This document shows positions 451 through 37,021 of a DNA stretch of 64,000 bases, piece by piece; positions within the stretch are counted from its first letter, which is position 1; every line of letters begins with the position of its first letter. The stretch covers positions 1 to 64,000 of the forward strand of contig JACRMI010000191.1 in the NCBI GenBank assembly GCA_016215025.1. The letters run 5' to 3'. This DNA is from Chloroflexota bacterium (GTDB taxonomy: Bacteria; Chloroflexota; Anaerolineae; UBA4142). A model generated the notes under the pieces. That model ran no database searches, was not told where the DNA came from, and worked only from the letters and a program-made list of their open reading frames with translations. The position numbers and the translations under genes are program-made.

Positions 451-464
451 GGTACCTCGGTACC
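451..464. promoter_or_regulatory. Candidate GntR-type operator, GGTACC-TC-GGTACC
   Basis: Two GGTACC boxes separated by two bases lie directly upstream of, and nearly touching, the -35 hexamer at 467. Each box is self-palindromic and the pair is also palindromic overall. FadR/GntR-type regulators commonly bind short palindromes containing GT..AC half-sites. The next gene carries an N-terminal GntR winged helix, so autoregulation is the natural inference, but binding is not shown by sequence alone. Confidence 0.5.
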
Positions 465-466
465 TA

Positions 467-495
467 TTGACTTTCCCCTGAATTCATCGTATATT
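467..495 (+). promoter_or_regulatory. Sigma70-type promoter of the ubiquitin-like cluster
   Basis: TTGACT at 467-472 is followed after exactly 17 bases by TATATT at 490-495. Five of six bases match the consensus in each box. The predicted start of transcription near 502 gives a leader of about 34 bases to the ATG at 536. No comparably good promoter was noticed between the following genes, although spacers of up to about 210 bases exist. Confidence 0.65.
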
Positions 496-535
496 CGGTT
501 TGCTGGTCTGACCACAGAACCAAAAGGATTGGCTA

Positions 536-2218
536 ATGAAAATTGATCCAGTCTCCCGAAACACTCTCCCGCGTTCGGTCGCCGAGCGCCTCCTGAAACT
601 CATCGCCGACGGCACCATCAAGCCCGGCGACAAAATGCCTTCCGAGCGCGACCTCATGGAACGCCTCAAGGTCGCCCGCTCGACCGTGCGCGAAGCATTG
701 CAAACCCTCTCTACCTCCAACATCATCGAAATCCGTCCCGGTGTTGGCGCGTTCGTCTGTCAAGATGTCCACGATCGCATTCCCGCCGCGCTTGAAGCAA
801 TTCAAAACCCGCATGCACTTCCACCCATCGCCAAATCGACTCTGCCCGATAACGGCAACGGCTCGCATCGCGTTCACATCGCCGGGCTTGCGCCGCTTCC
901 GCCTGCTCCCGACAAGCCGATTCACATTCCCAATTTGAAAACGGATCGGCTCGCCACATTCGAATTTATTTCGTGGTGGGAGCGCAGCAAGGTTCAAGCC
1001 GCGCGCGTGATGGTTATCGGCGCAGGCGCGCTCGGTAACGAAGTGTTGAAGAACTTGGCGCTGATGGGCGTTGGCAATTTATTCATCGTCGATTTTGACA
1101 CCATCGAAGCCGCAAACCTCAGCCGCTCGGTTTTGTTTCGCGCCGAAGACAACGGCAAAAAGAAAGCCGAAGTTGCCGCGCGTCGCGTCAAGGAATTGAA
1201 TCCCGATGTGCATGTCCAATATTTTCACGGCGATGTGAACACCGCCCTGGGTCTCGGTTTATTTCGACGGATGGACGCTATCGTCGGCTGTCTCGACAAT
1301 CGCGAGGCGCGCCTCTCGATCAATCGCTTTGCGTATCGCTTGAACAAACCCTGGGTCGATGGCGCGATTCAAGAATTGTTCGGTCTCGTCCGCGTGTTCG
1401 TCCCCGGTCAAGGCGCGTGCTACGAATGCACCTTGACCGAGCAAGCCCGCCGCGAAATGTCGCTCCGCTATTCATGCCCGCTCCTCGCGCGGCAAAATAT
1501 TTTGATGGGCAAGGTCCCCACCACGCCGACCAGTTCGTCGATCATTGGCGCGATGGAAGCGCAAGAAGCGCTCAAGCTGATTCACCACATGCCGGTCAAT
1601 GCCGGTCAAGTTACGCACGTCAACGGCTTGACGAACGATTTTCACACGACGGCGTACACGCCCGCCGAAGATTGCGAAAGCCACTGGGTCTATAGCGAAA
1701 TTACCGAATTGCCCAATCGCAAAGCCGCGACGACGACGGTGCTCGAATTCTTGCGCATCGCGCGCGAACAACTTGGCTCCGATGCGATCATCGAACTCGA
1801 CCAAGAGATCGTCACCCAGCTTGAATGTCATCACTGCGAAACCCTCACCGATGTTTTCAAACCAATCTCGCAAGTCAGTTACAACGATGGCTTGTGCCCC
1901 GGCTGCGGCGAGGTGCGCGAAGTTCACATGGCGCACACGGTCTCGGGCGACGAGCCATTCGTGCATCGCAGCTTGACGGCGGTTGGAATTCCACCGCTCC
2001 ACATCGTCCGCGTCCGCAACGATAAAGAGTACCGCTTCCTCGAACTCACCGGCGATCTCGCCGACACGTTGCACTGGTCGCACTTTGAAGGCGGCGCGCG
2101 GTCTGCTCATGCGAATCGGGTGCGCGTTCATCCGCGTCCGCAAATCAAATTGGGCGATGCTATCGCCGTTAGTACTCCGCCCGAAAAACTCGTCCGTCCA
2201 AAAATCGTCGTGCATTAG
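536..2218 (+). CDS. E1-like ubiquitin-activating enzyme fused to a GntR winged helix
   Basis: A 560-residue protein with an unusual layout. Residues about 10-75 are a GntR-type winged helix (PSERDLMERLKVARSTVREA core). Residues about 150-355 are a ThiF/E1 adenylation domain with the nucleotide loop GAGALG (162-167), the acidic residues after it, a CYEC pair (295-298) and Cys314 in RYSCPLL as a candidate thiolation cysteine. A C-terminal zinc ribbon follows (CHHC 431-434, CPGC 454-457), then an uncharacterised tail ending near an RPQIKL motif. E1 proteins adenylate the C-terminal glycine of a ubiquitin-like protein; the neighbours supply Ubl, E2, RING and JAMM partners. A DNA-binding head on an E1 is unusual and, with the palindrome at 451-464, suggests the enzyme also regulates its operon. 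The ATG has an AAAGGA Shine-Dalgarno. Which cysteine is catalytic is uncertain. Confidence 0.88.
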   Translation: MKIDPVSRNTLPRSVAERLLKLIADGTIKPGDKMPSERDLMERLKVARSTVREALQTLSTSNIIEIRPGVGAFVCQDVHDRIPAALEAIQNPHALPPIAKSTLPDNGNGSHRVHIAGLAPLPPAPDKPIHIPNLKTDRLATFEFISWWERSKVQAARVMVIGAGALGNEVLKNLALMGVGNLFIVDFDTIEAANLSRSVLFRAEDNGKKKAEVAARRVKELNPDVHVQYFHGDVNTALGLGLFRRMDAIVGCLDNREARLSINRFAYRLNKPWVDGAIQELFGLVRVFVPGQGACYECTLTEQARREMSLRYSCPLLARQNILMGKVPTTPTSSSIIGAMEAQEALKLIHHMPVNAGQVTHVNGLTNDFHTTAYTPAEDCESHWVYSEITELPNRKAATTTVLEFLRIAREQLGSDAIIELDQEIVTQLECHHCETLTDVFKPISQVSYNDGLCPGCGEVREVHMAHTVSGDEPFVHRSLTAVGIPPLHIVRVRNDKEYRFLELTGDLADTLHWSHFEGGARSAHANRVRVHPRPQIKLGDAIAVSTPPEKLVRPKIVVH

Positions 2219-2271: not shown

Positions 2272-3189
2272 ATGGAGAACCGTTCAACCACAAATTGGCG
2301 TTTGCGAATTGGTTTCGTACTAAGCGCGATGATCGGCATCGCGTGGGGCTTGCTCCTCGGCTGGACCGAAATTCGCGTCAACGCGTGGCTGTCGCCCTGG
2401 TATGTTCTCTTCGTCGGAATGCCCATCGCATTCTTCGGCAGCATGATCGTCGGCATGGTCGCGCACAGGATGCTCCTAAGCTGGCACAAGTTTGCGCGCT
2501 TGCTGGTCTCACTGCTGATGGTCGCCGTCGGTTTCCCGATCGGCTTGTTGTATGGCGTGTTCGCACATGGATATGAACCTTTTCAATTGATCCAAGAAAG
2601 TGGTCCAACCGTTTGGTATCTCGAATGGGCAATCGCCATCCTGGGTCTTTTCGGCGGCATGTGGCCCCGTTGGACGGTCCCATTTCTAAAATTGTTCGGA
2701 CGCTTCGGCGCATGGCTCTCGCAAGGACCACTCGCCATCTTGCGTTGGATCGGCGATAGAACGCTGGGTACTTTTGAAACTATCGGACACGCAATTTTCT
2801 GGCTGCCGACTCAAGCGTATCGCAAGGTCACATCGCTCTTCCAACGTCCGACGACAACGCGTGAACGCGAAACACCCGCATCTACACCTGCGCCAACAAC
2901 TGCACCTGAACCACCGTCTGCGCCACGACCGCCACGAACGACCACGTTGCGACGCCGCGCGAAAATGCTCAAGCCGCGCAAAGCACCAGTGGTGGCGAGG
3001 AACAATGGACACAATGGCGATTCACTGCGATTGACCGGCGTGGTGGAAGATCGATGTCCCTATTGTTTGGACGTCGTCAAGAAAAAAGATCCGCGGGGCG
3101 TCAAAAAGTGTGAAGTGTGCGGCACTCCGCATCACGCCGATTGTTGGGCAATCACAGGCAAGTGCCAAGTACCACATTTGAATACGTAG
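2272..3189 (+). CDS. Membrane protein with C-terminal prokaryotic RING finger (E3-like)
   Basis: The 305-residue product has about four hydrophobic segments in the first 150 residues, then a soluble, Pro/Thr-rich basic linker (about residues 185-255). The C-terminal 45 residues form a binuclear treble clef: Cys262 and Cys265 (CPYC), Cys280 and Cys283 (CEVC), His287/His288, Cys291 followed by Trp (HADCW) and Cys298, with His303 as a possible last ligand. This CPYC...C..C...HH..CW...C order is the prokaryotic RING signature described for bacterial ubiquitin-like operons. In eukaryotes RING domains hold charged E2 near the substrate, so a membrane-anchored E3-like role is inferred, with the finger most likely cytoplasmic. 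The frame can begin at a TTG at 2227 inside the palindrome, but the ATG at 2272 is the more plausible start. Confidence 0.8.
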   Translation: MENRSTTNWRLRIGFVLSAMIGIAWGLLLGWTEIRVNAWLSPWYVLFVGMPIAFFGSMIVGMVAHRMLLSWHKFARLLVSLLMVAVGFPIGLLYGVFAHGYEPFQLIQESGPTVWYLEWAIAILGLFGGMWPRWTVPFLKLFGRFGAWLSQGPLAILRWIGDRTLGTFETIGHAIFWLPTQAYRKVTSLFQRPTTTRERETPASTPAPTTAPEPPSAPRPPRTTTLRRRAKMLKPRKAPVVARNNGHNGDSLRLTGVVEDRCPYCLDVVKKKDPRGVKKCEVCGTPHHADCWAITGKCQVPHLNT

Positions 3190-3399: not shown

Positions 3400-4260
3400 A
3401 TGCCTGATCTCAATGTAACCCTAGTTTTACCCGCTGGTGGAGCACGCACCGCCGATGTGCCTGACGACGTGCCTATCCGCGAACTTTTGCCAGAACTCAT
3501 TTCGGTGCTAGAGTTGCCCACCACCGGTCCCGACGGTCGCCCGATGGGTTATCGCTTGGATAGCAAATCGCTGGGGCGCGAGTTGAAGGAAAGCGAGACG
3601 CTCGCCGAAGCGAAGGTGCCGCAGGGTGATCGATTGATGATTACGGCAGATGTGACCGCGGGCGCTGGCAAATCGCTCGTCACCGCAAGTCCGCGCTTTC
3701 GCCGCCTCAAAGCCGATTACGAAAAATTGCTGGAATTGAAAGCGCACAGCGACATTATCGATTTTGAAACCGTCGATGTGAAACCTGGCTCGCCGCCAGA
3801 AAAATATATCGTCACGTTCAAGTGTAAGAGCATTGTCGGCGTCGATGCGTTCGGCAATCCGAAATTCGGCGACCGTCACCAAGTCGCAATTTATTTGCAC
3901 AACGAATACCCACATCGCTGGCCCGGCTTGAAATGGCTCACGCCGATTTGGCATCCGAACATCAAAGGCGCGAATGGCAGCGTCTGCATCGATGCCGCGT
4001 GGTGGACGGCGGCGCGCTCGCTCGACCGCTTGGTCGTGATGCTGGGCGAGATGGCGCAGTGGAAAAATTTCCACGACGATCCGACCAAGCCGCCCTTCCC
4101 CTGGGATGCCGAAGCCGCCAAGTGGAGCGCGAACTATCGCAAGAAACATCCCGATGCTTTTCCGGTTGATAAGAGTGAACTGTTACGTCCAGAGCGCATC
4201 AAGATCAAGACCGAGCCGGCGGCTCCGGCAAAACCAAGACCGAAGATCAAGTTGAAATAA
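3400..4260 (+). CDS. Ubl-E2 fusion: ubiquitin-like domain joined to a UBC-fold conjugating enzyme
   Basis: A 286-residue protein. Residues 1-88 are a ubiquitin-like beta-grasp domain that matches the free Ubl encoded next at 67 of 88 positions by my count, including the closing TADVTAG. After a short AGKSLV linker, residues about 98-255 form an E2 (UBC) domain with the HPN motif at 185-187 and catalytic Cys196 in GSVCID, the usual spacing. The lysine-rich tail contains RIKIK and RPKIKLK. An E2 takes the activated Ubl from E1 as a thioester and, with the RING, passes it to lysines. The fused Ubl could be a built-in regulator, a docking site, or a precursor cut from the E2 by the JAMM peptidases; the sequence cannot separate these. 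A GGAGG ribosome site lies 6 bases before the ATG. Confidence 0.88.
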   Translation: MPDLNVTLVLPAGGARTADVPDDVPIRELLPELISVLELPTTGPDGRPMGYRLDSKSLGRELKESETLAEAKVPQGDRLMITADVTAGAGKSLVTASPRFRRLKADYEKLLELKAHSDIIDFETVDVKPGSPPEKYIVTFKCKSIVGVDAFGNPKFGDRHQVAIYLHNEYPHRWPGLKWLTPIWHPNIKGANGSVCIDAAWWTAARSLDRLVVMLGEMAQWKNFHDDPTKPPFPWDAEAAKWSANYRKKHPDAFPVDKSELLRPERIKIKTEPAAPAKPRPKIKLK

Positions 4261-4333: not shown

Positions 4334-4600
4334 ATGGCAGATGTACCAGTGACCGTGATTCTTCCCGCCGGTGGTTCTCGCACCGCTGAAGTTCCCGACG
4401 ATGTACCTGTGCGCGAGCTGCTCCCCGAACTGACTTCGTCATTGCAACTCCCCACCACGGGACCCGATGGTCGCCCGATGAATTATCGGGTGGATAGTAA
4501 AGCACTTGGACGCGAGCTGCGCGAAGACGAAACGCTGACCGCGGCTGGCGTACCGCAGAACGACCGCCTCATGCTCACCGCCGACGTGACGGCTGGATAG
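4334..4600 (+). CDS. Free ubiquitin-like modifier (Ubl), 88 residues
   Basis: A single beta-grasp domain of 88 residues that ends exactly at ...ADVTAG. It is nearly the same as the N-terminal domain of the adjacent Ubl-E2 protein (about 76% identity by eye). The fold most resembles the YukD/EsaB-like group of bacterial Ubls, an inference from pattern alone. The protein ends in Ala-Gly rather than Gly-Gly, with no residues after the glycine, so it should be ready for E1 activation without trimming. It is the expected substrate of the E1 and E2 in the same operon. A GGAGG Shine-Dalgarno lies 6 bases before the ATG. Conserved lysine is scarce (one, in the DSKALG segment), so chain building would have few sites. 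Confidence 0.85.
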   Translation: MADVPVTVILPAGGSRTAEVPDDVPVRELLPELTSSLQLPTTGPDGRPMNYRVDSKALGRELREDETLTAAGVPQNDRLMLTADVTAG

Positions 4601-4666: not shown

Positions 4667-5752
4667 ATGTATCGCGCGCTGTCGCTCATGCCGCTCAAAC
4701 AAGAAAATACTGCTCCAGTCGTTCACGAACTGAACGCCGATTCGACCAAGATCGGCGCGGCAGATGACAACGCCATTGTGCTTACCGACAAGAGCATCTC
4801 GCCGCATCACTTGGAGATTCGCCACGACGACGGCATCGATCATCTCGTCGTCGACTTGGCAGAACGCTGGCGACGACACGATGCGACCTGGTTCCAGTTT
4901 CGCGATGGCGATGCCTATTGGTGTCCGCGTCATGGCAACGTGAGTCAACTCGACGAACGCAACTGGTGCCCGACGTGCAAACACAAACGTGGCTCGCTCT
5001 GGCTCATTCGCCCGCTTCATCCCGGCGAAACGTTCGACATCGGCAAGGCCTATCGCGCGACCTATCTCTTGCAAGAGCGCGCGCCGAAAATCGAACCGGA
5101 CACCAGCGCAGCACCTGCACCTAAACAACTCTCAATTCCGCCCGCAGAAGAAGCGATTCCTGTCTGTGCGATGCCCTTGGACGATTCAAACCTGTGGCGG
5201 TGGCAGCCCGCAGGCATTCCTTTTCCAATTTTTATGCATCACCGCGTCAATGTGGCGATTACACAACACGCGCGCGAATATTCAGATCGCGAAGTGGGCG
5301 GCGTACTCCTCGGCGATGTGAAACGCGACGAGCACGGACAAATGTACGTCGTCGCAACGCACGCGATCAAAGCTGAATTTGCAGACGAGACGCGCGGGCA
5401 CATCACGTTTACGCACAACACCTGGCTCCAAATTCACCGTGCGCGTGAACGATTACAACCGGATAAAATTATCGTCGGTTGGTATCACACGCACCCTGGC
5501 TGGACGATTTTTCTCTCGCAATGGGATTTATTCATTCATACAAGTTTTTTCAGGGCGCCTTGGCAAATCGCACTCGTCGTCGATCCATCCCTCGACCGGG
5601 CTGGGTTCTTCGTGTGGAAAGATAACCAAGTCAATAGCCCGCATAAACCGATCGAACCATTCCGGCTTGCGGAGATCGATGGATGGGCGGATACAGTTAA
5701 ACCCCGCGTGCGAATCAAATTGACCGATACGGTTTCACCTGTCAAAGGATAA
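4667..5752 (+). CDS. FHA-JAMM (MPN/Mov34) metallopeptidase, deconjugase candidate
   Basis: A 361-residue protein. Residues about 1-135 resemble a forkhead-associated fold (KIGAADDNAIVLTDKSISPHH). An insertion carries CPRHG (86-90) and CPTCKH (101-106), which could bind zinc. After a Pro/Ala linker, residues about 185-325 are a JAMM domain with Glu209 (REVGG), the HxH pair His274/His276 in WYHTHP, Ser284 and Asp287: a complete zinc-peptidase set. JAMM enzymes cut the isopeptide or peptide bond after the Ubl C-terminal glycine. FHA domains bind phosphothreonine, so recruitment of this peptidase to phosphorylated partners is a reasonable inference. The tail holds RVRIKL. The stop is 6 bases before the next JAMM gene, so the two are surely co-translated. 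Confidence 0.85.
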   Translation: MYRALSLMPLKQENTAPVVHELNADSTKIGAADDNAIVLTDKSISPHHLEIRHDDGIDHLVVDLAERWRRHDATWFQFRDGDAYWCPRHGNVSQLDERNWCPTCKHKRGSLWLIRPLHPGETFDIGKAYRATYLLQERAPKIEPDTSAAPAPKQLSIPPAEEAIPVCAMPLDDSNLWRWQPAGIPFPIFMHHRVNVAITQHAREYSDREVGGVLLGDVKRDEHGQMYVVATHAIKAEFADETRGHITFTHNTWLQIHRARERLQPDKIIVGWYHTHPGWTIFLSQWDLFIHTSFFRAPWQIALVVDPSLDRAGFFVWKDNQVNSPHKPIEPFRLAEIDGWADTVKPRVRIKLTDTVSPVKG

Positions 5753-5758
5753 ACACCC

Positions 5759-6409
5759 ATGTCACGCATAAAACTCGCGGAACTTGTTCCGGTTCAATAT
5801 GAGGAAAAACCAATGCCAATCCAAGATTCTCTCAAATGGGCTTCGCGGTACGAAGATCAAGTCGGGTCGCACGTGCAAATCTTTTTCATCCAGTCCGCGC
5901 ACCAAAAATGTGTCGAGCATGTCAATAGCTCGATGGATCGCGAAGTGGGCGGTGTCCTAGTTGGAAACGTTCAATTCGATCCCATCGAATTGCAAACGTA
6001 CGTGACCATCGACGATGTGATTCCGGCGTTGTTCACCAACTCCGGCGAGACGCACGTCACATTCACGCAAAACACCCTGGTCGATTTGAACAGTCGAATG
6101 GACGAATCCTACCCCGGCAAAAGCATCGTCGGATGGTATCACACGCATCCGCGTCTCGGCGTATTCCTGTCGAATCATGACACGTTCCTGCATCGTCACT
6201 TTTTCCCCGACCCAACCCACGTCGCGCTCGTCGTCGATCCGTACTATAGACGTGCGGGATTCTTTTGCTGGCAAAACGGCAAGACACTCGACCCAGCCAA
6301 GTACGTGGGCTTTTACGAAACGAGCGACATGGACGACCACAGTATCGTCGAATGGGAAAATCTAGAGCCGGTAATTCCCGTCGTGCAAGAGCAGCAACAG
6401 GAGAATTAG
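5759..6409 (+). CDS. Second JAMM (MPN) metallopeptidase, stand-alone
   Basis: A 216-residue JAMM protein with the full active-site set: Glu62 (DREVGG), His128 and His130 in WYHTHP, Ser138 and Asp141. It is a clear paralogue of the JAMM domain just upstream, without the FHA head, and begins with SRIKLAEL. The C-terminus is acidic and Gln-rich. Two JAMM enzymes in one operon suggest division of labour, for example Ubl-E2 processing against substrate deconjugation, but nothing in the sequence assigns the roles. Confidence 0.82.
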   Translation: MSRIKLAELVPVQYEEKPMPIQDSLKWASRYEDQVGSHVQIFFIQSAHQKCVEHVNSSMDREVGGVLVGNVQFDPIELQTYVTIDDVIPALFTNSGETHVTFTQNTLVDLNSRMDESYPGKSIVGWYHTHPRLGVFLSNHDTFLHRHFFPDPTHVALVVDPYYRRAGFFCWQNGKTLDPAKYVGFYETSDMDDHSIVEWENLEPVIPVVQEQQQEN

Positions 6410-6576: not shown

Positions 6577-7434
6577 ATGAGTCTTCGAATGCGAGCGTAC
6601 TATTACGCGATATTGGGCGCGATTGGCGCGTTGATTGGTTGGCGCATTACGGACACGTTGGGCTTTCGCGCACCGAATGTTTACGTCAGCGACATTTTGC
6701 TCGGCGGCATCATCGGCTTGTGCCTCGGCTTGCTCATCGGCGCGAGCGAAGGATTGCTAGGGCAGTCGTGGTTCCGCGCGGCACGTGCGGGCGCAATCGC
6801 AGGCGGCATTGGTTTGGTGGCAGGCGCGATTGGGCTGCCCATCGGCGAATTTTTTTTCCAAGTCACTGGTGGTGAACTCATCGGACGCGCCTTGGGCTGG
6901 GGATTGTTTGGACTGCTCGTCGGCTTGTCGGAAAGTTTCACCAGTCGCACGCAAATGTGGAAAGGCGCAGTCGGCGGTTTGATCGGCGGCTTGGTCGGCG
7001 GTATCGTGCTCTACATTTTGCAATCGGCCGCGGGCGTAACCGCATTCGGCAAGATGCTGGGATTGATCGTGATGGGCGCATCGGTTGGCGTATTCATCGC
7101 GTTGATCGTCGTGATTCTTTCCAAAGCATGGATCGAGGTCAAGAGCGGAAAACTCAAGGGCAATGAATTCATCCTCGACAAGTTCATGCCGGAGCATGGA
7201 CCCGCTGCGATCATCGGCAGCAACGATTTCAAAGCGGACATTGCCCTGCCCGATCCCGGCATGGCTCCGCAGCACGCACGCCTCAAAGGCGCTGGCACGC
7301 ATTTCATGATCGAAGACATGAGCATTGGACAAGGAACGTTCGTCAACGGTCGCAAAGTGGAAATAACGCGACTCACCAACAATGCGGTCATCAAGTTGGG
7401 CAACACCGAGTTGGTTTATCACGAACGACGATAA
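6577..7434 (+). CDS. Polytopic glycine-rich membrane protein with C-terminal FHA domain
   Basis: A 285-residue protein. The first ~185 residues are Gly/Ala/Leu/Ile-rich, with about six hydrophobic segments and repeated GGxxGxxxG patterns of the glycine-zipper kind. Residues about 195-283 form an FHA domain (IGSNDFKADIALPDPGMAPQHARL, then GTFVNGRKV), the usual phosphothreonine-reader pattern. The FHA domain is probably cytoplasmic, making a membrane platform for phosphorylated proteins. Together with the FHA head on the JAMM enzyme it suggests that Ser/Thr phosphorylation is linked to this ubiquitin-like pathway, although no kinase gene is seen here. An AAGGAGA ribosome site precedes the ATG. 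Confidence 0.75.
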   Translation: MSLRMRAYYYAILGAIGALIGWRITDTLGFRAPNVYVSDILLGGIIGLCLGLLIGASEGLLGQSWFRAARAGAIAGGIGLVAGAIGLPIGEFFFQVTGGELIGRALGWGLFGLLVGLSESFTSRTQMWKGAVGGLIGGLVGGIVLYILQSAAGVTAFGKMLGLIVMGASVGVFIALIVVILSKAWIEVKSGKLKGNEFILDKFMPEHGPAAIIGSNDFKADIALPDPGMAPQHARLKGAGTHFMIEDMSIGQGTFVNGRKVEITRLTNNAVIKLGNTELVYHERR

Positions 7435-7522: not shown

Positions 7523-8758
7523 ATGAAAAGATTACTCTTATCTTTCGTTTTCGCAATCGCATTTTGCTCGCTGGCGGTGTTGAGCGTCAGCGCGCAAGCA
7601 CCGATGAATATTACCGTGACACAAGTTGACCAATCGCGCTTTCCGCAAATCGATGTGTTCGTTTCGGTAACGGATACGAATGGCAATCCGGTACGCAACG
7701 TAGCGCCGAATGCTTTTCAACTCCAAGAAAATGGCAAGCCGATTGCATTGACGGCGGCAACACATGCAGGCGAATCGAACCCGGTCAGCACCGTACTGAT
7801 TATCGATCATAGCGGCAGTATGGCATCGGCTGGAAAGATGACGGCGGCAAAACAAGCCGCGAGCGCGTTCGTCAACCACATGCGTCCCGGCGACAAGACC
7901 GCACTGATTCAATTCGATACCGAGATCGAAACGCTGCAAGCATTCACGGAGGACAAGAATGCACTGCTCGCGGTGATTCAAAAAATCGTGCCGCGTGGCA
8001 ACACGGCGATTTACGATGCGGTCAATCAAGCCGCCAAGTATTTCGAAGCAACGCAAGGCCGCAAGGACATTATTCTCGTTACCGACGGCATGGACAACGC
8101 CAGCAAGATCAATCGCGAGACGATTGTCGATAAGGTGAGCAAGAGCGGATTCTCAATCAACACGATTGGGTTGGGCGCGAAAGGCGCAGGCTATGGAAGC
8201 CAAGATGGGATCGACGAAACCGTATTGCAGGACCTAGCACATGCGTCGATGGGTACGTACTATTATCGCCCCGATGCAGCGCAATTGAGCGAACTGTATC
8301 AACAACTGTCATTCTTGATTCAGAACGAGTACAAACTCACCTACACATCGACCAGTCCGTTGCGCGATGGTGTCAAACGCAACATCGTGGTCACCGCGCC
8401 GGGCGCAGCCGCCACGCAAACGACGTTCAATCCGGGCGGCGTGATTCCCGAAGCTGAATCGCAGCTATCGTCCTGGGTCATGTTCGCAATCGCATTGCTC
8501 GTGTTGCTTGGACTATTCTTCTTGCCGTTGGGCTTGCAAATCGTGCGCGAGCGTGGAGTCAATCTGCCCGCATTGCCAACCCCTCAGGCGGCATTACCCG
8601 CAGCACCGCCCAAACCGAGCCGCGTGAAACTCACCGGCGACGCGCCGACCGCTTCAGCAACAACATCCACCCGCCAGCGCATCAAGATCAAACAGTCGTC
8701 TGGAGCAACGCGTTCGCAGAACACAATGCCCTGGGACGAAGGCGCAGATAAGCACTAG
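7523..8758 (+). CDS. Membrane-anchored von Willebrand factor A (VWA) protein
   Basis: A 411-residue protein with an N-terminal signal peptide (about 1-25, ending VSAQA), an extracytoplasmic N-terminal segment, and a VWA domain from about residue 90 with the MIDAS motif DHSGSM. A transmembrane helix follows near residues 318-340. The cytoplasmic tail is basic and holds RVKL and RQRIKIKQ, like the tails of the Ubl-E2 and JAMM proteins. VWA domains bind protein ligands through a metal ion. Genes of this type accompany FHA and TolB-like proteins in many Chloroflexota operons. The preceding 88-base spacer carries a GTGAGGG/CCCTCAC hairpin. Confidence 0.8.
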   Translation: MKRLLLSFVFAIAFCSLAVLSVSAQAPMNITVTQVDQSRFPQIDVFVSVTDTNGNPVRNVAPNAFQLQENGKPIALTAATHAGESNPVSTVLIIDHSGSMASAGKMTAAKQAASAFVNHMRPGDKTALIQFDTEIETLQAFTEDKNALLAVIQKIVPRGNTAIYDAVNQAAKYFEATQGRKDIILVTDGMDNASKINRETIVDKVSKSGFSINTIGLGAKGAGYGSQDGIDETVLQDLAHASMGTYYYRPDAAQLSELYQQLSFLIQNEYKLTYTSTSPLRDGVKRNIVVTAPGAAATQTTFNPGGVIPEAESQLSSWVMFAIALLVLLGLFFLPLGLQIVRERGVNLPALPTPQAALPAAPPKPSRVKLTGDAPTASATTSTRQRIKIKQSSGATRSQNTMPWDEGADKH

Positions 8759-36169: not shown

Positions 36170-36878
36170 TTTTGCCTACTCGCGTGATCTTTTATTTGTA
36201 CATGACTTTTCAACGGTGATAAGCACTCTTATAGACAACATGTCTTTACAGAATGCATTGCCGAGAGACACTTGTTATGCGTCCTTAGCATATCACAAAT
36301 CGGATACCATGAAACCTGTCTTGGGTAATGTTTTTTCCCCTCTTGGGGCGGGTTTTCATACGGAGGCACCTTAGTCGAGCTTTTGGATCAACCGCAAGCG
36401 TGTGACCAATCTGCAACGCAGAGGCAGAATTGGGTAACGTGAGGAAAAGAATTGGCTCAGGCATCCAGTTTCTTCTGAAAAAACGCAATCTCTCCAAGAG
36501 TCCCCTGCAGATTGAAAAACAAAAAACACCTGCCGAAGACACGAAATTTCGTACCTAATCAGGCAGGTGCTCTACCTTGTCGAGTCAGTCTAGAATCGCT
36601 GGAACGTCGTTGTCCCATAATGTCACCCTCTTGGCAGTCATCCACAGCCAGCTGAGTATCAGAGACAAAGCCAAGTCTTACGCGTTCAATAATATTACAC
36701 TTCCCCTCGCCTGCCAATCCTTCAGCGATCCTACCTCCTGACACGCTTGGCGTTTGACCGCCGGTTCGATGAGTGCCAAATAGATCGGGCACGCAACCAA
36801 CTTAACCGCATCGCTGAAAATGCAAAACGCTCAAGCGAAAACAATCACTCGAGCGCTCAATCTATCTTATTCGTGTGT
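36170..36878. other. Intergenic region of ~700 bases, one terminator, no gene
   Basis: Only short frames without motifs or ribosome sites occur. The one recognisable element is the hairpin at 36520-36569. Confidence 0.5.
36520..36569 (-). terminator. Terminator-like hairpin, minus strand
   Basis: On the minus strand CACCTGCC and GGCAGGTG flank an inner palindrome (ACGAAATTTCGT) and are followed by TTTTTTG. It lies about 310 bases beyond the tRNA-Glu gene and could end that transcript. Confidence 0.5.
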
Positions 36879-36950
36879 GCCTCCACGGAGATTCGAACTC
36901 CGGTCTTAGCCTTGAAAGGGCTACGTCCTAGTCCCCTAGACGATGGAGGC
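36879..36950 (-). tRNA. tRNA-Glu (UUC)
   Basis: A complete 72-base cloverleaf: acceptor GCCTCCA paired with TGGAGGC, discriminator A, D arm TCGTCTAGGGGACTAGGA, anticodon stem TAGCC/GGCTA around loop CTTTCAA (anticodon TTC), and T arm CGGAG-TTCGAAT-CTCCG. The 3' CCA is not encoded. Confidence 0.9.
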
Positions 36951-36957
36951 AAATAAA

Positions 36958-37021
36958 GGGAATTCGAATCCCAGTCTTGGCCTTGAAAGGGCCACGTCCT
37001 AGTCCCCTAGACGATGGGGGC
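36958..37021 (-). pseudogene. 3'-truncated tRNA-Glu copy
   Basis: A second tRNA-Glu (UUC) starts at 37021 with acceptor GCCCCCA, the same D arm, and anticodon stem GGCC/GGCC around CTTTCAA. Its T arm ends at TCCC, and the 3' acceptor half (expected TGGGGGC) is missing: the sequence goes straight into TTTATTT and the intact gene 8 bases away. It cannot form an acceptor stem as written. It may be a decayed duplicate, or a deletion may have fused two tandem genes. Confidence 0.75.

Follow-up and report, generated by a model that had tools for sequence, protein, structure and literature searches.

The DNA analysed here (the window) is the 64-kb stretch with which contig C137, part of a 7.74-Mb genome, begins, with related records in Anaerolineae/Chloroflexota. 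Near its beginning it carries a predicted promoter and an operon of ubiquitin-like conjugation genes, the first of which encodes an E1-type activating enzyme with an N-terminal GntR winged helix (hereafter GntR-E1). The features of this region are as follows.

451-464, unstranded: GGTACCTCGGTACC, a GGTACC pair adjoining the -35 box; the window version of a conserved promoter element, approximately RGTACY-N3/4-KTMCYA
467-472, + strand: -35 hexamer TTGACT (together with the -10 hexamer, 10 of 12 consensus matches; 17-bp spacer)
490-495, + strand: -10 hexamer TATATT (in 29 of 39 loci, 8-13 bp separate the operator from a preceding -10-like hexamer)
497-522, unstranded: predicted extended operator, in which the outer half-site GGTT (497-500) flanks the core on the left and AACCA (518-522) on the right; half-sites 8 bp apart
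504-514, unstranded: operator core TGGTCTGACCA, of the FadR-type GT-N3-AC form; predicted winged-helix site by conservation and spacing
536-2218, + strand: fusion protein GntR-E1 of 560 aa, encoded by the leading gene of the operon (Pfam; homologous loci)
572-757, + strand: GntR winged-helix domain, aa 13-74 (PF00392, E = 7.8e-20)
950-1675, + strand: aa 139-380, the ThiF/E1 adenylation domain, in which Cys314 is the candidate catalytic cysteine (PF00899, E = 5.9e-57)
2272-3189, + strand: membrane protein with a C-terminal prokaryotic RING-like domain (PF14446, E = 2.4e-6, slightly below the cut-off; relative in 33 of 34 loci)
3400-4260, + strand: YukD-like ubiquitin-like protein (Ubl) fused to E2 (PF08817 and PF00179; 32 of 34 loci)
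4334-4600, + strand: free Ubl, C-terminal end ...TADVTAG (PF08817)
4667-5752, + strand: FHA domain and JAB protease (PF00498, PF01398)
5759-6409, + strand: second JAB protease (PF01398)
6577-7434, + strand: membrane FHA protein, syntenic (PF00498; 30 of 34 loci)
7523-8758, + strand: VWA protein, syntenic (PF13519; 29 of 34 loci)

The claim of the initial annotation that an E1 enzyme is fused here to a GntR DNA-binding domain is upheld by Pfam comparison, in which the single ORF 536-2218 contains both PF00392 (70.7 bits, against a cut-off of 27) and the ThiF domain PF00899 (193 bits). The fusion is kept in 17 of 396 genomes of the class and in 33 of 34 homologous loci, which rules out an assembly artefact. 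Pfam detected no FCD domain in GntR-E1, its place being taken by ThiF, and no aminotransferase domain, so that the protein falls outside both the FadR subfamily proper and the MocR subfamily. The DNA contacts of FadR, listed as Glu34, Arg35, Arg45 and Arg49 in PMC4494728, correspond with a residue offset of 3 to E37, R38, R48 and R52, which are invariant in the alignment of 41 fusion proteins. The E1 motifs (GxGxLG, D186, D188, R197, K210, D254, C295, C298 and C314, the choice of the catalytic residues among them being presumed) are likewise present in all 41, unlike the case of an enzyme decayed to a pure regulator, and judging by this conservation GntR-E1 appears to be an intact E1. In the residue counts, the E1-only set comprised 13 proteins (L036 has no readable ORF), and L071 and L024 encode truncated E1s. 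Given that the next-best E1-type matches in the same genome reach identities of just 34% and 32% to GntR-E1, the latter should be the catalytic E1 of the operon.

In a single-chain AlphaFold model, the winged helix and the E1 core are confidently predicted and residues 94-148 have pLDDT values below 50; the linker, counted from aa 75 to the motif at which the E1 begins, spans 51-68 residues across the fusion set. The winged helix thus looks flexibly tethered to the E1 in the model, and such a linker speaks against tight allosteric coupling. The invariant C314 falls within a low-confidence loop (306-328). A Foldseek search matched the model to the structures of ThiF, MoeB, UBA5 and UBA3.

Wherever the RING, Ubl-E2, JAB, FHA and VWA genes were found in fusion loci, the fusion gene precedes them; relatives of the JAB proteases are present in 31 of the 34 homologous loci, and in the window Pfam additionally identifies propeller proteins downstream, on the same strand, beside the FHA and VWA genes. 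The free Ubl ends in Thr-Ala-Gly, that is, with a single terminal glycine, in 31 of 32 complete copies (the L057 copy, cut by the contig end, is not among the 32). The free Ubl of L042 has one extra residue after this motif (TAGA) and would need trimming. In the Ubl-E2 protein (3400-4260), the Ubl moiety carries the same terminal motif followed by alanine or a similar residue, and this junction is likely a JAB processing site. Partial PADLOC matches were obtained to the E1-E2, BilD, BilC and JAB models, which are supplied without cut-offs.

At E <= 1e-60, E1 matches were detected in 50 of the 396 genomes of the class; judged by the start coordinates of the matches, the 17 fusion genomes among them include the winged helix, and in the other 33 the match begins at aa 122 or later. 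A set of 400 genomes of the phylum yielded 12 E1 matches, 10 with the fusion, one (G405) lying outside the class. Nine duplicate fusion loci, identical in their first 300 nt, were removed before counting. The fusion also occurs in the complete genome of a named strain, Pelolinea submarina MO-CFX1. A quick tree, in which the root and the long branches are unsure, would allow the fused form to have arisen once. The E1-only operons of Chloroflexota (code family f37) encode orthologous-looking E1s that are 49-58% identical, with Ubl, E2 and JAB genes alongside. A sister E1 that has no winged helix (L115 and L121, genome G278) is part of a larger island, which also holds two RING-like genes as well as Ubl-E2, JAB, VWA and FHA genes. 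Another E1-only relative, L070, is labelled Nitrospira, with no relatives of Ubl, E2 or JAB found nearby, and represents either transfer or misbinning.

Directly behind the -10 box of the fusion gene, at 504-514, lies the only occurrence of TGGTNNNACCA in the 64-kb window, beginning 8 nt behind the hexamer. Because 46 of 100 shuffled sequences contain at least one such match, the 11-mer alone is unremarkable, and its significance comes from position and conservation. The exact motif TGGTCWGACCA is present within 300 bp in 33 of 41 distinct fusion loci and also in L094 (34 of 42), and six more loci have it with one mismatch, so that 40 of 42 fusion loci carry the core with at most one mismatch; it was found in none of 14 E1-only loci. 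The upstream regions of the fusion genes have a median ungapped identity of only 27%, yet the core is kept. The 41 loci add up to 432,170 bases, in which every one of the 33 exact matches is at the E1 start; L094 has a second match within its gene. In the entire 7.74-Mb genome to which the window belongs, TGGTCWGACCA occurs once. The core is flanked by a third half-site, ACC at +15 to +17, in 39 of 39 aligned operators, and by a fourth, GGT at -7 to -5, in 16 of 39; the window has both, which yields the dyad 497-522. According to PMC4494728, sites of the FadR subfamily consist of TKGT/ACMA boxes whose GT and AC are usually separated by 3 nt, and TGGTCTGACCA conforms to this rule. Computationally, a fusion with intact active-site and DNA-contact residues goes with a position-locked operator that is absent where the winged helix is absent. 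We rejected an RNA hairpin as an explanation of GGTAT...ATACC, given that the right half is constant (ACC, 39 of 39) and the left variable (GGT, 16 of 39), and that the predicted transcription start falls inside the dyad.

A scan of the 396 genomes with the 19-mer TGGTCWGACCANNADACCA produced matches in 13 genomes, 10 of which are among the 17 fusion genomes, each with the match at the E1 promoter; each of the other three matches precedes a GntR gene (Pfam GntR and FCD). The genome of the window is not among the 13, its third half-site being GAACCA instead of ADACCA. Seven of the 17 fusion genomes miss the strict 19-mer (G000, G237, G298, G089, G233, G306 and G224); in six of these the departure is a slight one, within the core or the third half-site, and G224 has no core. 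As a counterpoint, a GntR-FCD regulator encoded elsewhere in the genome of the window, with a similar specificity, could also use 504-514.

The two fusion loci that have no operator core, L015 and L042, are sister rows in the tree, forming one clade with starred support. In both, the tip of the wing reads QAAR, as opposed to RPGV-like sequences in the other proteins, and the core is replaced by CTGGTAT-N7-ATACCAG, which in L015 immediately follows a -10-like box and in L042 lies 165 bp ahead of the start. In this clade, comprising two loci only, the winged-helix protein and its operator look like a co-varying pair. A scan of the 396 genomes for the variant palindrome gave background: of the 9 genomes with a match, G224 alone has it at a GntR locus, and in the other eight the locus is not a GntR one; the scan therefore neither supports nor weakens the variant, for which the evidence is L015 and L042.

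The GGTACC pair (GGTACCTCGGTACC), described by the initial annotation as abutting the -35 box, indeed ends 2 nt before TTGACT (467-472). The GGTACC-N2-GGTACC arrangement is unique in the 64 kb and did not appear in any of 100 dinucleotide shuffles. The same annotation had proposed that GntR/FadR-type proteins bind this pair and that the E1 regulates its own promoter through it. Only part of this proposal stands: regulation by the E1 of its own promoter is very likely, but a role of 451-464 in it is not supported, the GT-AC spacing there being wrong for FadR-type proteins; it is 504-514 that fits. As to homologues sharing both fusion and site, the exact pair is found in 1 of 42 fusion upstream regions, whereas the degenerate form is found in 20 of 42 (shuffled sequences average 0.4), which places 451-464 within a real, conserved element.

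When extended with ATTG, this element has 16 occurrences in 19 genomes, compared with 2 for the reversed pattern used as a control; three of the 16 are E1 promoters and 13 precede unrelated genes. The copy in the window has one more spacer base and hence is not among the 16. The ATTG suffix was picked after earlier hits, partly from the same genomes; the genomes unseen at that point (G405, G039, G137 and G301) gave 6 matches, against 1 for the control. In two of these, G039 and G137, the element is present in the absence of a fused E1 match. Aptamers of c-di-GMP-I riboswitches follow 7 of the 13 non-E1 copies, with RGTACY-N3-KTMCYATTG preceding the riboswitch in L145 (in the genome of the window itself), L147, L148, L151, L153, L143 and L128; several of the riboswitch-linked copies, in several Chloroflexota genomes, precede small secreted-looking proteins. 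In view of the copies at non-E1 promoters and riboswitches, we rejected E1-specific ownership of 451-464. A LexA/SOS site (an N4-spaced dyad) was likewise rejected, as the counts per strand in the same genome are 9 for the strict dyad and 13 for its reversed control; a literature search on this reading gave nothing useful.

Binding of the E1 to the GGTACC pair, as its main or a second operator, is accordingly improbable in our estimate. It is favoured by the conservation of the degenerate form and by G233, G306 and G089, in each of which the copy at the E1 promoter is the sole strict match in the genome, but it is contradicted by the spacing, by the near absence of the exact pair, by the riboswitch-linked and other non-E1 copies, two of them in genomes with no E1 match, and by roughly half of the fusion loci lacking the element or showing no recognisable form of it. 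The presence of the element at unrelated genes and in fusion-free genomes suggests that another factor probably binds 451-464, which is likelier to be the site of another regulator or a general promoter module.

We consider it quite probable, from these sequence features, that GntR-E1 is a bifunctional protein, the E1 for the YukD-like Ubl and at the same time an autorepressor that acts on its own operon through the operator 497-522, with 451-464 being separate. ThiF/MoeB-type E1s are dimers, and a GntR-E1 dimer would bind, via its N-terminal FadR-type winged helices, the dyad centred on TGGTCTGACCA (504-514), extend over the predicted transcript from approximately -5 to +20 and thereby block RNA polymerase. 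The output of the operon would be set by the level of the E1 and possibly also by its occupancy by ATP or Ubl, and the GGTACC pair would be a promoter element belonging to another regulator. Physical binding, repression as opposed to activation, E1 activity and coupling to the state of the E1 are what we infer from the computed features.

Alternatively, the winged helix might not bind DNA at all and instead serve dimerisation or protein contacts, the site being owned by a separate GntR-FCD regulator. Winged helices can be co-opted, and ordinary GntR-FCD regulators of the class use the same type of operator; nevertheless, this is very unlikely considering that the DNA-contact residues are invariant (41 of 41), the operator tracks the fusion (0 of 14 E1-only operons), its core occurs once in the genome, and one clade shows a joint change of wing tip and operator. 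That the winged helix serves to anchor the E1 on DNA for the modification of chromosome-bound proteins, the promoter site being one docking place among others, is hardly credible: the active-looking enzyme and the long flexible linker would suit such a role, but there is a single exact site in the genome, directly behind the -10 box of the protein's own gene, as for a single-target autorepressor.

If GntR-E1 is an autorepressor, several known systems invite comparison. BirA combines a winged helix with a biotin adenylating ligase, and its DNA binding is controlled by the adenylate. By analogy, GntR-E1 would similarly be an adenylate-forming ligase with an N-terminal DNA-binding domain that represses the operon of its own pathway, although the catalytic folds are unrelated and adenylate-controlled binding is only conceivable for GntR-E1. 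The operon may plausibly be coupled to the charge state of the E1 (Ubl-charged as opposed to free, an idea of the initial annotation), in the manner of BirA. More tentatively, and with the odds somewhat against it, the E1 could be a sensor of its own pathway, such that occupancy by ATP, Ubl-adenylate or Ubl-thioester alters the geometry or availability of the winged-helix dimer, and binding at 497-522 reports free Ubl and ATP and opens or closes the operon. In that case, GntR-E1 would be the ubiquitin-like counterpart of BirA.

Among GntR/FadR-subfamily autoregulators of the FCD type (FadR, PdhR, NanR), the winged helix of GntR-E1 is closest to the NanR, PdhR and FadR-type domains. The TKGT-N3-ACMA operator is shared with the FadR subfamily as described in PMC4494728, and the operator of NanR, according to PMC8012715, lies behind the RNA polymerase site, as it does here. 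The TGGTAT/ATACCA half-sites resemble the repeats of NanR and GabR, and the 8-bp separation of the half-sites in 497-522 recalls NanR-type repeats. The difference is that FadR, PdhR and NanR have an FCD or other ligand-binding domain where GntR-E1 has an active-looking E1. In the MocR subfamily (GabR, PdxR), a GntR winged helix is joined to a dimeric enzyme fold, the aminotransferase fold (PMC4494728), but both this fold and the operators are different, and the E1 is the enzyme of its own pathway, with catalytic residues kept.

The Bil operons, according to PMC11354881, encode E1, E2, Ubl and JAB together, as in the window. Bub operons can have dedicated repressors, e.g. CapW, CapH with CapP, or CapK with CapS, and the Bub-associated repressors described in PMC13373217 are separate, DNA-damage-responsive proteins. 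The Bub and Bil systems differ from the present one in that their regulators are separate proteins rather than part of the E1, and in that here the YukD-like Ubl ends in just one Gly and synteny extends to FHA, VWA and RING-membrane genes; the E1-only Chloroflexota operons (f37) differ in having no winged helix and no operator. No description of a GntR-ThiF/E1 fusion was found in the open-licence PMC literature searched. If the proposed role is correct, an E1-type activating enzyme doubles as a transcription factor, in a fusion system conserved across many Anaerolineae, and a bacterial ubiquitin-like conjugation pathway would be tied directly to the expression of its own genes, with sensor, regulator and enzyme being one polypeptide, unlike the separate repressors of Bub. 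Elsewhere in the window, on the minus strand at 36878-37015, there are two adjacent tRNA matches, the second of which is weak and partial.
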